From the NCBI GenBank assembly GCA_027371775.1, contig DAHXLG010000006.1, positions 1 to 37,062 on the forward strand: a stretch of 37,062 bases of DNA, in the 5' to 3' direction. This DNA comes from a bacterium (GTDB lineage Bacteria; Pseudomonadota; Alphaproteobacteria; CAJXXZ01; DAHXLG01). A program made the translations under genes and the position numbers. Positions 17,978 through 35,807 of the stretch are shown in pieces. The notes below the pieces were generated by a model. The model ran no database searches, was not told where the DNA came from, and saw only the letters and a list, made by a program, of their open reading frames with translations. Each line of letters begins with the position of its first letter. Position 1 is the stretch's first letter.

Positions 17978-19204
17978 TTACTTAAAACACCAACAAGACC
18001 GAGCACTAGTCACTGGCAACCAGCTGCAATCTGTATTAAAATACATACGCAAATCTTTTACTAAAAGATTTTGATTGTTTTCATCTTTTAACCAATTTGG
18101 AACACTATTTTTCATAATACGAAACATACCATAGTATAAACCTTTATTAAATTTAAAACGTTCTGTGTTTTTCATGTTAATTTTTAAATAAATATGATTA
18201 TATTGGTTATGATAATACTCTTCAACAAACTTATATAAATATGGCAATAATGCAGCGGCAAATTGATTCTGTGGAACACCATGTCTGGCAAATGACTCTA
18301 TCTTTATTCTGATCCATTTAAACTCTATTTCATAAGCCAACAAATCCTTTGGCCTAATTTCGATAGGCAGCTTTTTCATATCATCAATGGTTTGTAAAAC
18401 AATCAATAAATTTCTTTCAAAAACAGCTAATGAGTTGCTTTCATCAACTTGCAAAAGTGAATAACCTGAACTATCAACTTTTGGCATATTAGCAAAAACC
18501 GCAGCATAATCAAATTTTCTTTTCCCTTGATATCTGATACTTAAATCTAAAGCACTAATTATCCTATCTACAGCAACCTTAGTAGGATCTAATTTTACAA
18601 ATTTATCTAGTAAAGCATAAACATGCTTATAATCTGGCAAACCTATAAACTCTATTTTGGATGAAGTTTGATCATCAGCATGCTGCACTTGATTTCTGGA
18701 TTTATCGCGAATACTAGAAGAACTTTCAAATGAATCATCTGGCTCTTGAGATATAAAATCAGATAATTGCGAAAACACTTTTTTATTCTGCGTATACTGC
18801 TTTAATGCATCATCACGCATTGCATTCACTTGCTGATTAAAGTGAACATACAATCTAAAAATTGCATTTGAAATATTATCATGCGCGCTAGAATAAGAAA
18901 GATTAGACATAATTTGATTATATTTACTCTTAACCTTATCAAACGTTTCTCTCATATCACAAACATATTGCAAAAATTTACCGCCAGATAATCGCTCTAA
19001 ATTAGATAAATTCTCAAATGCTTTTTCATACTCTGCTTGAAATATTTCAAATGCAACGACTGCATCTGCTGATAATGCACATGCCAAAAATAGGATATAA
19101 TATCTAAATTTTTTTCCTTTTTCCTTAGCAATATTTATGTGCTTGTTAGTATGTTTCTTATAGTTTTCCCTTGTAAAATTTATCATGATTAGCATTATGT
19201 GCAT
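17978..19204 (-). CDS. Putative secreted or periplasmic protein, unknown
   Basis: I do not recognise a family. From the ATG at 19204 the product is 408 residues; TTG 19222 and ATGs at 19195 and 19186 are also in frame. A hydrophobic segment YYILFLACALSADAVVA preceded by KEKGKKFR looks like a signal peptide with cleavage before FEIF, but it lies about 40 residues from the start, an unusually long n-region, so the true start may be a non-standard codon further in. The rest is soluble, mostly helical and rich in Tyr, Asn and Lys, with a low-complexity polar stretch (DDSFESSSSIRDKSRNQ) near the middle, and ends in SARSCWCFK. It follows holC by 32 bases on the same strand. An exported, lineage-specific protein is the best description. 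Confidence 0.6.
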   Translation of the reverse strand: MHIMLIMINFTRENYKKHTNKHINIAKEKGKKFRYYILFLACALSADAVVAFEIFQAEYEKAFENLSNLERLSGGKFLQYVCDMRETFDKVKSKYNQIMSNLSYSSAHDNISNAIFRLYVHFNQQVNAMRDDALKQYTQNKKVFSQLSDFISQEPDDSFESSSSIRDKSRNQVQHADDQTSSKIEFIGLPDYKHVYALLDKFVKLDPTKVAVDRIISALDLSIRYQGKRKFDYAAVFANMPKVDSSGYSLLQVDESNSLAVFERNLLIVLQTIDDMKKLPIEIRPKDLLAYEIEFKWIRIKIESFARHGVPQNQFAAALLPYLYKFVEEYYHNQYNHIYLKINMKNTERFKFNKGLYYGMFRIMKNSVPNWLKDENNQNLLVKDLRMYFNTDCSWLPVTSARSCWCFK

Positions 19205-19254
19205 AAATAATTTTAATTGCAACCCTAAAAAAAACGGCTTTAAATAATATCAAA

Positions 19255-19751: not shown

Positions 19752-20399
19752 ATGAAAAAATACTTACAACGTCCGGATAAAATTTGGTCGCACGAAAACG
19801 ATTTGCCAACTTGGGTGTTAGATGATAACAAATATGACTCAGTAGCAATTGATACAGAAGCAATGGGATTATGCGTAACACGCGATAGACTTTGTTTAGT
19901 ACAATTATCTTTTGATTCAAAGGTATGTCACTTAATTAAATTTAACGCCGACTCTAATTATGATTCGCCAAACTTAATTGCATTACTTGAAAATCCAAAA
20001 ATCACAAAAATTTTTCATTTTGCTCGTTTTGATATTGCGTTATTATTTCAGACATTTGGCATTGCGGTTCAAAATATTTATTGCACTAAAATTGCTTCGA
20101 AACTAGCACGCACTTATACTGAAAGACATGGATTAAAAACTATTTGCTCAGAGCTACTTGGAATTGAAATTTCTAAAAAGGAGCAATCATCAGACTGGGG
20201 CAAAAACGCTCTAACAGAAGAGCAAAAATTGTACGCGGCAAGCGATGTATTACATTTGCAGTTTCTTAAAGAAAAACTTGACGAAATGCTTGCTAGAGAA
20301 TCCAGGATGGAACTTGCTATCGAGTGCTTCAAGTTCTTACCGTATTTAGCTCAATTGGATTGTTTGGGATGGTCAGAATCAATTTTCGCGCATCTTTAA
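19752..20399 (+). CDS. rnd: Ribonuclease D, exonuclease domain only
   Basis: RNase D is a 3'-5' exonuclease in tRNA and small-RNA 3' processing. The 215-residue product is the short alphaproteobacterial form without HRDC domains. The DEDDy residues are visible: Asp34 and Glu36 in VAIDTEAMGL, Asp94 in FHFARFDIALL, and Tyr161 and Asp165 in LYAASDVLHLQFL. The segment HGLKTICSELLGI is also typical. A TATAAT box at 19726-19731 sits 20 bases before the ATG, with an AGAAGAAG ribosome site between. The 3' end overlaps the next gene by 31 bases, as expected for the rnd-lptC-lptA-lptB order of alphaproteobacteria. Confidence 0.92.
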   Translation: MKKYLQRPDKIWSHENDLPTWVLDDNKYDSVAIDTEAMGLCVTRDRLCLVQLSFDSKVCHLIKFNADSNYDSPNLIALLENPKITKIFHFARFDIALLFQTFGIAVQNIYCTKIASKLARTYTERHGLKTICSELLGIEISKKEQSSDWGKNALTEEQKLYAASDVLHLQFLKEKLDEMLARESRMELAIECFKFLPYLAQLDCLGWSESIFAHL

Positions 20400-21418
20400 A
20401 AACAATTTTATGTTTTTTTTCACTCTCACTGCTTTCTGCAGAAACTAGAAAAGACACAAAAAAACGAATAGTTAGTCAAGAAAAACCGCTATTAATTAAT
20501 AACAGCGATGTTGCCAAAACTTCGCTTGAAGAAATTGTTTTAGAAGCTGATGGCAAGCTAGATAAATCTGGAAAAAAACTGTATCAATATAAAGCTCATA
20601 TTAAAAAACTTGAAATAAATGCTAATCAAGAGGCGCTAGGCAAAGAAATTTCTCTTTCTGGAACAATCAATCAAATAAATCTCTCAGCTACCATAAGCAG
20701 CATTTTTATAAGATCATACTTTAATGCAAACGAAACCTATTACCTTTTCGATGCAACTCAATCACAAATAACATTTGCTGGCATTATAATTGCATCACAA
20801 TCTATTATAGCAGATACTGGAACCAAAGTAATCTTTTTGCATCAATGCACTGGAAGTTATGATAGTAAAAACGAAATGTTTGGCATATTACAATTCTATA
20901 CATCACAACCAATAATAATAAAAAATATGAGTTTGTATTCGAGCAATTTACAAATAACCAACGAAAAAGTACAAATTGATATAGCACAAATTATTCTCAA
21001 TCAAGAACAAGGAAAAGCAAAAAAAATTCTAGCTAAAATCGATGATTTTATCATTTCAATTGAGGAAATGAATATGCGCTCAAAAATAAATTTGCAATCA
21101 AAATTTATAAATAAAATCATTGCAAAAAATATAAAATGTTTGCGCAAATCAGATAAAACTGAAATAAGTTCAGGCCTAGCCGAGTTTGAAAATGATAAAT
21201 TAACTTTGCCGCAAGCGATATCAATTAAGACAAAAAACTTTACTTTAACCGCAGCAAATGGCTATCAAGAAGGCAAAAAAATATTCTTAAAAAAGATAAA
21301 TTTTAAAACGAAAAATGCCAATGGCTTTTCTCAATCTGGTTACTTTGATATAAAACATAAGAAACTGATATTAGAAAATGGAAAAATAGAATGGCAATCT
21401 TCACAGGCAAAAATTTAA
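20369..21418 (+). CDS. Putative periplasmic LPS-export protein in the lptC/lptA position
   Basis: Context indicates a role in moving lipopolysaccharide from the inner membrane to the outer membrane with LptB. The start at 20369, inside rnd, gives 349 residues with a signal peptide (RASLKTILCFFSLSLLSA). The rest is almost entirely beta-strand-like sequence with alternating hydrophobic residues, such as ITFAGIIIASQSIIAD and KVIFLHQCTGSYDSKNEMFG, resembling the OstA/LptC jelly-roll pattern of 'a strand, a modified residue, a new strand'. Its length is close to LptC (about 190) plus LptA (about 170), and only one gene lies between rnd and lptB, so it may be a fusion or one greatly diverged member. 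I see no single diagnostic motif, so the assignment rests on neighbours and pattern. The 3' end overlaps lptB by 28 bases. Confidence 0.6.
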   Translation: MVRINFRASLKTILCFFSLSLLSAETRKDTKKRIVSQEKPLLINNSDVAKTSLEEIVLEADGKLDKSGKKLYQYKAHIKKLEINANQEALGKEISLSGTINQINLSATISSIFIRSYFNANETYYLFDATQSQITFAGIIIASQSIIADTGTKVIFLHQCTGSYDSKNEMFGILQFYTSQPIIIKNMSLYSSNLQITNEKVQIDIAQIILNQEQGKAKKILAKIDDFIISIEEMNMRSKINLQSKFINKIIAKNIKCLRKSDKTEISSGLAEFENDKLTLPQAISIKTKNFTLTAANGYQEGKKIFLKKINFKTKNANGFSQSGYFDIKHKKLILENGKIEWQSSQAKI

Positions 21419-22068
21419 ACATACTAAACAAAGCGCAGAAATTAATTTTTGATAATTTCTCGTTTGAAATTAACAAGGGCGAAATATGGATCGCAATGGG
21501 TCCAAATGGTATTGGCAAATCGTCTTTCTGGGAGGCACTCATAGGCATTGGTCCAATAAAAAGCGGAAAAATCTTTTTAAACAATGTTGATATTACAAAC
21601 AAACTGCCAGCAGAACGTGTTAGACTTGGTATGCGATATATTGCACAAAACAATGCACTGTTTGATGATATTTCTGTTGAAGAAAATCTTAAAATTGTTG
21701 CTGAATCATTGCTACGATCAAAAGAACGCAAAGCGGCAATTGAAAACGCTGTGAAAACTTTTTGGCTTGAACCACTTTTGAAAAAAAAACCTGGAAAACT
21801 ATCTGGCGGACAACGTAGACGTGTTGAACTTTCTAAAATTATGATTGGTCCTTCAACGCTCATTTTAATGGATGAACCTTTTGCCGCCGTAGACGAAGAA
21901 TTCACTCAAAAAATCAATCAAATTTTTATACAAATGAAGAAAAATGGCACGAGCTTCTTGATCAATGACCATAACAGCTTTGCTATGCGATCAATTGCAG
22001 ATTATTGCATCCATCTTGGGCTATCAGACCAAAAAAATCCTACAAGTATTGAAAAAATCAAACACTAA
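21391..22068 (+). CDS. lptB: LPS export ABC transporter ATP-binding protein
   Basis: LptB powers extraction of LPS from the inner membrane by LptFG. The 225-residue ATPase shows Walker A GPNGIGKSS (37-45), the signature LSGGQRRRVELS (137-148), where RRRVE after the signature is typical of LptB, Walker B LILMDEPFAAVD (Asp161, Glu162), and the H-loop LINDHN (His194). The family reads GPNGAGKTT and LLDEPFAGVDP, so Ser replaces the first Thr after the Walker Lys. The C-terminus is slightly shorter than usual. It overlaps the upstream putative LptC/A gene. lptF and lptG are not in the window. Confidence 0.92.
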   Translation: MAIFTGKNLNILNKAQKLIFDNFSFEINKGEIWIAMGPNGIGKSSFWEALIGIGPIKSGKIFLNNVDITNKLPAERVRLGMRYIAQNNALFDDISVEENLKIVAESLLRSKERKAAIENAVKTFWLEPLLKKKPGKLSGGQRRRVELSKIMIGPSTLILMDEPFAAVDEEFTQKINQIFIQMKKNGTSFLINDHNSFAMRSIADYCIHLGLSDQKNPTSIEKIKH

Positions 22069-22084
22069 TAATATTATTAATCTA

Positions 22085-23140
22085 ATGAATATTGATAAAA
22101 ATAATCTAAATATCGAACACGTTAACAATATGCTTCTAGAGATTTCAAATATCGAAAATCTCGAAGCTTTACGAGTAGAAATACTAGGCAAAAATGGCAT
22201 ACTCACAAATATGCTAAAAGAGCTTGGTTCGGCTAGCATGGAAGTTCGCCAAACAAAGGGAAAAGAACTCAATGAATTGAAGCATGCAATTGCGCAAAAA
22301 TTCACTCAAAAGAAGGAAGAAATTGAATCAATTCCACAACCTGATACACACGATTATTCATTTCCGTTTAATAAATCGATCATCAGTGAAAATGTCAGCA
22401 AAAATATTAACTTAGGAAAGAGACATCCAATTCCTACAACAATTACACGTCTGCACGAAATCTTTAAAGCAAGCGGCTTTCAATCAGTTAACGGACCAGA
22501 TATTGAAGATACATATTACAACTTCGAAGCATTAAATATTCCACAAGAACATCCTGCGCGAGATAATAACGATACATTTTATATGCATGAGGAAAATAAA
22601 TTATTACGCACACATACAACCGCTGTTCAAATACGTTTGCTTGAACAGATGAAAGATGAGCCTAAAGATATACGCTCGTATTCAATTGGAAACGTCTATC
22701 GCAACGATGCTCACGATGCAACACACGCATGCTCATTTCATCAAATTGAAGGAATCATAATCGAAGACGGAGTCACTATGCAACATCTTAAAGGATTTTT
22801 GGAACACTTGTTTGCAGAATTCTTTGAGAAAAAATGTCATATTAGATTTCGTCCTTCATATTTCCCGTTTACCGAGCCATCTTGCGAAGCTGATATCTTC
22901 GTAAAAAATATTGAAGGAAAATTAGAGGTTACAACGCAAGACGAAGGCAAACCAATGGAGCTAGGCGGCTGCGGAATAATTCATCCATCAATTTTGGAAA
23001 GGTTTAATATGAATGGCAAACAAGCATTCGCATTCGGATTCGGACTTGAAAGAATTATTATGATAAAACACGGCATAGCAAATTTGCACGATTTATATAA
23101 TAACAACATTCCTATGCTAAACTACATTACACAAAGTTGA
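22085..23140 (+). CDS. pheS: Phenylalanyl-tRNA synthetase alpha subunit
   Basis: PheS is the catalytic subunit of the heterotetrameric class II PheRS. The 351-residue product has the N-terminal coiled coil (residues 1-90), then GKRHPIPTTITRLHEIFKASGF, motif 2 IGNVYRNDAHDATHACSFHQ, EGIIIEDGVTM, and the motif 3 region FAFGFGLERIIMIKHGI. The product-binding segment reads MELGGCGIIHP where most have LGCGMVHP, so one Gly is added. The frame runs upstream to 21965 inside lptB, but homology starts at MNIDKNN and fixes 22085. The lptB-pheS neighbourhood is not conserved generally. pheT is not present in the window. Confidence 0.95.
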   Translation: MNIDKNNLNIEHVNNMLLEISNIENLEALRVEILGKNGILTNMLKELGSASMEVRQTKGKELNELKHAIAQKFTQKKEEIESIPQPDTHDYSFPFNKSIISENVSKNINLGKRHPIPTTITRLHEIFKASGFQSVNGPDIEDTYYNFEALNIPQEHPARDNNDTFYMHEENKLLRTHTTAVQIRLLEQMKDEPKDIRSYSIGNVYRNDAHDATHACSFHQIEGIIIEDGVTMQHLKGFLEHLFAEFFEKKCHIRFRPSYFPFTEPSCEADIFVKNIEGKLEVTTQDEGKPMELGGCGIIHPSILERFNMNGKQAFAFGFGLERIIMIKHGIANLHDLYNNNIPMLNYITQS

Positions 23141-34842: not shown

Positions 34843-35682
34843 TTATTCATCTTCTTGACTAAAAGACAAATCGTTTGAGCTTGCATCATCAAAATCATCA
34901 TCACTCATACAAGATTCAACTGCAAGAATATTCTTATTAGCATTCACAAAAGATTCAACTGCAAGAATATTCTTATTAGCATTCACAAAAGATTCAATTT
35001 CAACGATATCTTCAAGGATATCTTTATGAGCATTCAAGAAAGATTCCATTTCAAATATATCTTTAACAATACCAGATATGTTTTTTGAACCAATCATTCT
35101 GCCACTTTCGAGCTCTTGAGAAGCACGTAAAAACAATATGAGCTTAGGCATACTTTGATAATCCACAAATTGCGATAACCAAATTGTATGCTCTTCAATT
35201 AAATTCTCTAGATTTTCAACGTCTGGCATGCAAAGTTCTAACATATTATTACGATGAGATTTCCAATAGTCAAGTTCTAGTATATCCGATATAGCCTCTA
35301 TTTCCAAACCTAAAAAACAAGCATAATCAACAGTTTTTGATTCTTCAAACAAACTATTCACTCCATTAACATAAAACACAACTAAAAGATCATATGTTTT
35401 TTTATGTAGCAAAGATAACTCTTCCAAATCAGTGTAGCCATAATGCTTTCTTAACACATCATTTACTACTTTGCTAATATTTCCTAAAACATGGTCTTTC
35501 ACAAGATTGATATGCACAATCAAAGCATTATCATCACTTAGCTGCAAAATATCTGAATTTCGAAGCAACTCACCTAACTCTGCTTCTTTTATCGAAGCAT
35601 GTGTAAACGTTGTTGTCACAAAATGTGCTATCAATGACATAAATATAATAAGTGAATTTTTTCTAGATAATATGGACTTCAT
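34843..35682 (-). CDS. Putative secreted protein with 13-residue repeats
   Basis: No family is recognised. The frame opens at 35763, but ATG 35682 gives a classical signal peptide: MKSILSRKNSL, then IIFMSLIAHFVTTTFTHA, with cleavage expected before SIKEA. The mature protein is acidic and mainly helical (EELSLLHKKTYDLLVVFYVNG, CMPDVENLENLIEEH). Near the C-terminus it carries repeats of ESFVNANKNILAV, at least two perfect and two diverged copies, followed by an acidic tail (SDDDFDDASS). It lies downstream of the transaldolase-like gene on the same strand. Repeat number may vary between strains, as seen in surface or effector proteins of host-associated bacteria, but its location and role are inference. 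Confidence 0.6.
   Translation of the reverse strand: MKSILSRKNSLIIFMSLIAHFVTTTFTHASIKEAELGELLRNSDILQLSDDNALIVHINLVKDHVLGNISKVVNDVLRKHYGYTDLEELSLLHKKTYDLLVVFYVNGVNSLFEESKTVDYACFLGLEIEAISDILELDYWKSHRNNMLELCMPDVENLENLIEEHTIWLSQFVDYQSMPKLILFLRASQELESGRMIGSKNISGIVKDIFEMESFLNAHKDILEDIVEIESFVNANKNILAVESFVNANKNILAVESCMSDDDFDDASSNDLSFSQEDE
34912..35049. repeat. 39-base tandem repeat inside the secreted-protein gene
   Basis: Units starting AGATTCAAC recur at 34912, 34951 and 34990 with a period of exactly 39 bases (13 codons), the first two nearly identical. A fourth, diverged unit starts near 35041 after a 51-base step, that is, one unit plus 12 bases. All lie in frame, so copy-number changes would not break the protein. 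Confidence 0.85.
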
Positions 35683-35807
35683 ACTATTAGTGTAACTTAG
35701 AGTTTTTACCAATTTATCAATTTTTAAATCATAATTTAGCAACAAGAGTACCACAAACGGCAAAAATTTTTACAAATAAAAATTGAAAATAAATTACAAT
35801 GTAATTT

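Follow-up and report, generated by a model that had tools for sequence, protein, structure and literature searches.

The rnd-lptB locus and its usual gene content

The window, meaning the whole stretch of 37,062 nucleotides that was analysed, is one contig (C135) of a draft genome of 840,024 bases in 168 contigs with 83.8% completeness. Between rnd and lptB it carries a single frame of 349 codons, here called gene X, which overlaps rnd by 31 nt and lptB by 28 nt, just as an earlier note on this DNA had described (Table 1). The frame starts with the ATG at 20369, and an in-frame GTG is also present 45 nt upstream. At the base composition of X, an open run of this length has a chance of approximately 5e-14. 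The GC content at the 3 codon positions is 0.35/0.30/0.21, and the same falling trend is observed in rnd and lptB. The neighbour identities proposed in that note were confirmed by family models. The rnd product scores above the cut-off of PF01612, with ribonuclease D (TIGR01388, 5.2e-26, below its curated cut-off) as the best NCBIfam model, and an rnd match was found in all 8 genomes of the order. The lptB product scores above the cut-off of PF00005, and its best NCBIfam model, TIGR04406 (LptB), falls below the curated cut-off. Its translation contains the Walker A motif GPNGIGKS, together with LSGGQ, DEPFAAVD, and INDHN. Since the listed pheS frame overlaps the end of lptB, the true start of pheS is probably located further downstream.

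Table 1. Window positions of gene X, its putative parts, and neighbouring genes
Feature	Positions	Strand	Length	Basis
rnd, ribonuclease D-like 3'-5' exonuclease, upstream neighbour	19752..20399	+	215 aa	PF01612 1.6e-39
Gene X, candidate single-chain periplasmic bridge protein of the Lpt type, in the place of lptC and lptA	20369..21418	+	349 aa	open reading frame
Weakly hydrophobic signal peptide or anchor at the N terminus of X	20369..20440	+	residues 1-24	hydropathy; helix at residues 10-22 in a low-confidence model
N-terminal region of X, putative first jellyroll	20471..21073	+	residues 35-235	beta-type periodicity
C-terminal domain of X, probable Lpt-type beta-taco	21074..21415	+	residues 236-349	hhalign, AlphaFold2, Foldseek, VIA-align
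lptB, Lpt ATPase	21391..22068	+	225 aa	PF00005 1.2e-26; best NCBIfam TIGR04406 2e-41
pheS, downstream neighbour, outside the system	21965..23140	+		PF01409 1.6e-83

No Pfam or NCBIfam family matched X above its cut-off, and no credible homologue was found in 40 other genomes or by a peptide-pattern scan of the genome_contigs collection. Two other matches in the 40-genome search (E 0.018, with two internal stops, and E 0.25) were short and judged to be chance. Matches to focal-adhesion targeting domains (Pfam E 0.022, PDB E 0.0022), which are helical and rich in I, K, and N, were likewise attributed to chance. The DNA repeat search at the locus returned nothing beyond one 19-nt pair, and matches to promoter and terminator patterns were no more than expected by chance. 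Elsewhere in the window, two long frames on the minus strand (17978-19222 and 34843-35763) carry stretches that resemble secretion signals close to the N terminus, and by eye they belong to no obvious family; they possibly encode secreted symbiont proteins.

The normal state of this locus was assessed by a scan with 8 aligned rnd proteins, which yielded 80 named alphaproteobacterial rnd loci. LptC and LptA were recognised in 72 of them, as separate genes in 71 and as a fused gene in one, and neither was recognised in the remaining 8. Among the 71 loci with separate genes, the gap between lptC and lptA is at most 150 nt in 68, and the longest-ORF frames overlap further in 3. Under the search criteria, lptB was not detected in every one of the 72 loci. 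For lptC and lptA, the order rnd-lptC-lptA-lptB, which the earlier note had called typical, is borne out by their adjacency in 71 of the 72 recognisable loci. Three of the named loci (L030, L034, and L072) each contain two separate LptA-like frames.

The length of X was said to be about that of LptC and LptA combined. This is fair for reduced genomes, in four of which, all small and with a single-domain LptA, the two proteins add up to 304, 360, 375, and 420 aa (longest-ORF starts), but X is short against the 71 named loci, where the sum has a minimum of 386 and a median of 484 aa. We also searched 15 small alphaproteobacterial genomes outside the order and found an LptA gene in 11. Of the other four, two matched only in frames as long as LptD and two had no match at all. 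The LptA of 7 of these 11 genomes is a double-repeat protein of 267-339 aa, and that of the other 4 is a single one of 162-213 aa. The double-repeat loci (L120, L121, L123, L124, L127, L128, and L129) represent pre-joined double bridge units.

Sequence profiles and predicted structure of X

X had been credited with one signal peptide or anchor and with beta-rich sequence throughout. A single N-terminal stretch is indeed present, and its hydrophobic run is weak, with a maximum 17-residue Kyte-Doolittle hydropathy of 1.61 (residues 8-24) compared with 2.77 for E. coli LptC and 2.11 for E. coli LptA. The beta character held for periodicity and not for composition. Beta-type hydrophobic periodicity was unusual in both parts of the chain, being reached by only 7 of 138 decoys for the N part (residues 40-235) and 3 of 138 for the C part, and in both parts it equalled or exceeded that of E. 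coli LptA and LptC. The Chou-Fasman beta composition, in contrast, was unremarkable, as 88 of 138 decoys scored as high. The periodicity of the N part would fit a second beta-taco. An internal repeat between the two halves of X was not found (344 of 500 shuffles as high).

X gave no match to the LptC model PF06835 at E<=1 and no Pfam match to the LptA model PF03968; as both models fail, X is not classed as a member of either family. We then compared X with alphaproteobacterial profiles, using decoy sets of 138 proteins for single profiles and 46 for joined profiles. Residues 285-338 align to the core of the LptC profile (hhalign E 0.017), and whole X scored 20.9; one shuffle in 100 did as well, and none of the 138 decoys, the best of which came to 20.7. 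Residues 235-349 alone aligned over 81 columns with an E value of 0.0067, and none of 100 shuffles scored as high. The alignment stops before the last part of the profile, where the chain ends. A broader LptC profile reduced the alignment to 16 columns (E 0.021). The LptA profile performed no better on whole X than on shuffles (65 of 100 as high), and 12 of 100 shuffles were as high for the C-terminal piece. For the N-terminal half, shuffles scored as high in 27 of 100 cases with the LptC profile and in 25 of 100 with the LptA profile. LptA/LptC-like motifs placed by eye on residues 50-240 were discarded, since no placement rose above shuffles in the profile tests.

Semi-global comparison with a joined LptC+LptA profile gave X a score of 13.5, against a shuffle mean of 1.9 (sd 1.3). 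None of 60 shuffles and none of 46 decoys (best 6.2) reached this score, and only the LptC part was aligned. Other arrangements gave 7.0 for LptA+LptC (2 of 46 decoys as high), 7.1 for LptA+LptA (1 of 46), and 13.2 for LptC+LptC, where no decoy of 46 was as high and the margin was small (best decoy 12.8). As controls, E. coli LptA matched the alphaproteobacterial LptA profile at E 8.6e-28, and on the LptC profile E. coli LptC reached E 0.0018 and E. coli LptA E 0.0005. A weak score is therefore what would be expected of a distant true LptC, and the LptC profile separates LptC from LptA poorly.

The fold of X was predicted with AlphaFold2 without an alignment. The mean pLDDT was 39, with ten-residue blocks of 58-70 over residues 281-340. 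When the whole-X model was searched with Foldseek against 350,542 PDB chains, the top three matches were LptC chains (4b54 twice and 6mit), and Lpt proteins accounted for 14 of the best 50 rows; the best E value was 0.36 and none was <=0.001. VIA-align, which is a second look at Foldseek's own list, placed the Lpt similarity in residues 235-349, with Lpt proteins in 18 of the best 50 rows. The Z scores of these rows, 3.7-6.6, are tied with those of unrelated folds (best 4akr_C, Z 6.7, rmsd 4.1, 92 aligned). Residues 35-239 alone gave a mean pLDDT of 36 and no usable fold, and Foldseek with that model returned Lpt proteins in 0 of the best 50 rows. Because this model is equally poor and yet attracts no Lpt protein, the Lpt enrichment cannot be put down to poor modelling of X in general. 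This list of 50 rows may still be compatible with a beta-taco in the modelled N-terminal half. No score of X is significant by itself (hhalign E 0.007-0.02; Foldseek best E 0.36). Judged from the profile alignments and the models, the C-terminal third of X is probably a beta-taco/jellyroll of the Lpt type. Of the jellyrolls that the earlier note had proposed to look for, one is suggested for this third, in a low-confidence model, and the N-terminal half came out without a fold.

Lpt, Bam, and lipid A genes in the source genome

The source organism is most likely a fast-evolving Holosporaceae-type endosymbiont. Seven other genomes of the order were available, including four single-contig genomes of 622,257, 627,924, 615,988, and 589,967 bases. 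Since these four score 84-88% complete, the 83.8% of the source genome may be near the score of a complete genome in this group.

Separate lptA and lptC genes, the search for which the earlier note had proposed, were not detected elsewhere in the draft genome, with profiles of limited sensitivity. Across the genome, neither the Pfam LptC model (PF06835) nor the LptA/LptD_N model gave a match at E<=10, nor did 24 aligned alphaproteobacterial LptA proteins at E<=1. PF03968 is insensitive here, as it does not find this genome's own LptD. The LptA profile moreover returned no LptA gene in 4 of the 15 other small genomes, where the gene is absent or was missed, so a divergent lptA could escape detection. 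The other partners of the Lpt machine are present. LptF (TIGR04407, 2.3e-8), LptG (TIGR04408, 7.6e-4), and LptD (NF002997, 2e-7) are encoded by consecutive overlapping frames on one contig (C78). Each of the three, like LptB, is below its NCBIfam curated cut-off, and all four are consecutive or in place. BamA was found on another contig (C11), above the cut-off for PF01103 (2.1e-17) and below that for TIGR03303 (2.2e-62), and PF01103 identified BamA in 5 of the order's 8 genomes. LptF and LptG were not detected at E<=0.1 in any of the seven besides the source genome, and no credible match to X or LptB was found there in the 12-16 kb around rnd.

We then searched for the enzymes of lipid A synthesis. 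None of the order's 8 genomes yielded LpxC at E<=0.1 or LpxB at E<=1, while the E. coli and Caulobacter controls were positive in both searches. The source genome contains 7 hexapeptide-repeat matches, all in three proteins (DapD, GlmU, and a Vat-like acetyltransferase); LpxA and LpxD were accordingly not seen in the draft genome. Gene order was also compared. In E. coli, bamA is followed by skp-lpxD-fabZ-lpxA-lpxB. In the source genome, bamA is followed by a ClpB-like gene with no lpx genes (contig C11, L152:8024-12761), and fabZ stands alone between atpB-like and groEL-like genes (contig C102, L110:127-579). Here, fabZ and bamA were confirmed by family models, and the ClpB-like, atpB-like, and groEL-like genes were named from their translations. 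The bamA-lpxD-fabZ-lpxA-lpxB cluster is thus dismantled in the source genome (G000:C11, G000:C102). Given the changed neighbourhood of bamA and the isolated fabZ, loss of lipid A synthesis is more likely than its concealment in a gap of this draft assembly.

Two further observations were made on contig C81 of the same genome (G000:C81). A gene on the minus strand (L119:5269-5952) encodes a Vat/CatB-like xenobiotic acetyltransferase (NF000311, 1e-71, below the curated cut-off). A repeat-rich region (L119:325-750) has repetitive frames on both strands with units like LLHLMFLFKEM / GPLLEKHHHFLEQEHQMQQI.

Candidate roles of X and comparison with known Lpt systems

X is likely to be a bridge protein in the place of lptC and lptA. 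The locus and the partner genes are supported by sequence and synteny, and the C-terminal beta-taco is supported by sequence and model with weak scores. In the mechanism we propose, a reduced Lpt machine would be made of LptB, LptF, LptG, X, and LptD, with X as its periplasmic bridge subunit. X would be exported via its weak N-terminal signal or anchor, dock on the beta-taco of LptF, and pass lipid to the N-terminal domain of LptD. An Lpt beta-taco would occupy the C-terminal third of X, with a second one most likely formed by the 200 residues before it, so that the single chain would span the LptC and LptA positions. We give even chances to X being such a one-piece subunit of an LptB-LptF-LptG-X-LptD machine. 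That it is a true two-domain fusion of LptC and LptA is plausible, with the case about evenly balanced. Such a fusion, as a pre-assembled piece of the LPS bridge, had been put forward in the earlier note. The place of the gene, the lack of a detected separate lptA or lptC, and the C-terminal beta-taco speak for it; for the presumed second jellyroll, neither a fold nor a profile match above shuffles was obtained. The only profile that X clearly resembles, through its C terminus, is that of LptC and not that of LptA, which is at odds with a simple order of LptC then LptA. As Lpt beta-tacos share their strand pattern, the order of domains is not read from this similarity. What points to a second Lpt domain is the length of X, its periodicity, and its place.

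Two other arrangements of the bridge have to be weighed, and we consider both of them unlikely, to a similar degree. X could be a double-domain bridge of the LptA type that docks directly on LptF after the loss of LptC. Two-repeat LptA proteins of comparable size (267-339 aa) are encoded in 7 of the 11 small alphaproteobacterial genomes with LptA, the N terminus of X resembles a weak signal peptide rather than a strong LptC anchor, and the LptC profile also catches LptA, as its E. coli control shows (E 0.0005). LptC can moreover be bypassed in E. coli by changes of LptF R212, giving a six-protein bridge that works without LptC, according to PMC9972910 and PMC4986956. X nevertheless scores on the LptC profile and not on the LptA profile, and a double-LptA profile gave 14.0 against 20.8 for the LptC profile (both without shuffle control). 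Conversely, X could correspond to LptC by itself, lengthened at its N terminus, and a very divergent lptA could lie elsewhere or in an assembly gap. LptC is the sole clear profile match of X, the assembly consists of 168 contigs at 83.8% completeness, and, as described above, the LptA profile finds no LptA gene in 4 of 15 small genomes and PF03968 misses the LptD of this genome. Against this, lptA adjoins lptC in the 71 separate-gene loci, X directly overlaps lptB, and residues 40-235 of X have a beta-type periodicity of their own.

Explanations that deny X a working role in the bridge fare much worse. It is very improbable that the Lpt genes are relics being lost after LPS, with X drifting and of little function. 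In its favour, searches for lipid A genes came back negative, LptF and LptG went undetected in the order's seven other genomes, which also show no credible X or LptB near rnd, and X is very AT-rich with no homologues found. Yet five genes at two loci (lptB, X, lptF, lptG, and lptD) are all open and tightly overlapping. We give hardly any credence to the idea that X is unrelated to Lpt and precedes lptB by chance. Its lack of a family match above cut-off and its very low sequence similarity to anything would agree with this, but its position, the partner genes, the LptC-like C terminus, and the Lpt-enriched fold matches argue against it.

On the preferred reading of X as a one-piece bridge subunit, the cargo deserves attention. 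Since lipid A enzymes were not detected, the reduced bridge probably carries a lipoprotein or some lipid that is not LPS, and the piece of the LPS bridge envisaged earlier may serve something other than LPS. We tentatively suggest, at less than even confidence, that an endosymbiont without lipid A synthesis keeps a five-protein Lpt bridge, in which one chain stands for LptC and LptA, and exports another amphiphile. At a similarly tentative level, this could be a phospholipid or glycolipid, a host-derived lipid, or a lipoprotein, delivered to the cell surface. The more interesting part of the case is this Lpt machine in a genome where the searches detected no lipid A enzymes.

The retention of a reduced Lpt bridge without lipid A synthesis looks like the situation in Borrelia and Treponema. 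Like the source genome, these LPS-less spirochaetes have Lpt proteins without LPS. For Borrelia burgdorferi, passages of PMC10353723 propose a glycolipid cargo and argue against lipoproteins, whereas work reported in PMC13317210 points to surface lipoproteins. A glycolipid cargo is also proposed for Treponema pallidum in passages of PMC8407342. Unlike in the source genome, lptC and lptA are separate genes in Borrelia, and in Treponema every Lpt component except LptE is said to be present. The source genome in turn differs from the spirochaetes as that of an alphaproteobacterial symbiont with a candidate one-piece bridge. Within the alphaproteobacteria, some Holosporales differ from Hepatincolaceae with complex, robust peptidoglycan and lipopolysaccharide surfaces, as described in a passage of PMC11724238.

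Compared with the alphaproteobacterial operons for LptC (PF06835) and LptA (PF03968), X shares the gene position, an export signal, and a probable C-terminal beta-taco, and its genome shares the partners LptB, LptF, LptG, and LptD. It differs in that those operons encode two chains that match the family models, with a strong LptC anchor, while X is one chain with one probable domain. The six-protein bridge of E. coli resembles the proposed machine in having one periplasmic protein fewer; it is a laboratory suppressor with an ordinary LptA (PMC9972910).

It is an open question how small an Lpt bridge can be and what it transports once LPS is gone, and the LPS-less Lpt cases recognised in the open-licence literature are spirochaetes. 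If our reading is true, a naturally reduced alphaproteobacterial bridge with one candidate protein for two roles would offer a minimal Lpt system for reconstitution. It would moreover represent a midway stage in the loss of LPS export within the order, whose other seven genomes gave no detected LptF/LptG or LpxB/LpxC.

A natural LptC-LptA fusion was found in the rnd survey. It is the sole fused gene among the 72 recognisable loci and belongs to a Hyphomicrobium sp. MAG (NZ_JAIELN010000006, L035:6682-8628, plus strand), where it follows rnd and encodes 648 aa. The protein scores 127 bits for LptC and 237 bits for LptA, and two LptA-like stretches are visible by eye. No report of a natural LptC-LptA fusion was recognised in the open-licence literature searched. 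Like X, the Hyphomicrobium gene is a single gene after rnd in place of lptC and lptA; unlike X, it has clear LptC and LptA matches and nearly twice the length, in a genome examined at this locus. It shows that lptC and lptA can merge, whatever X turns out to be.
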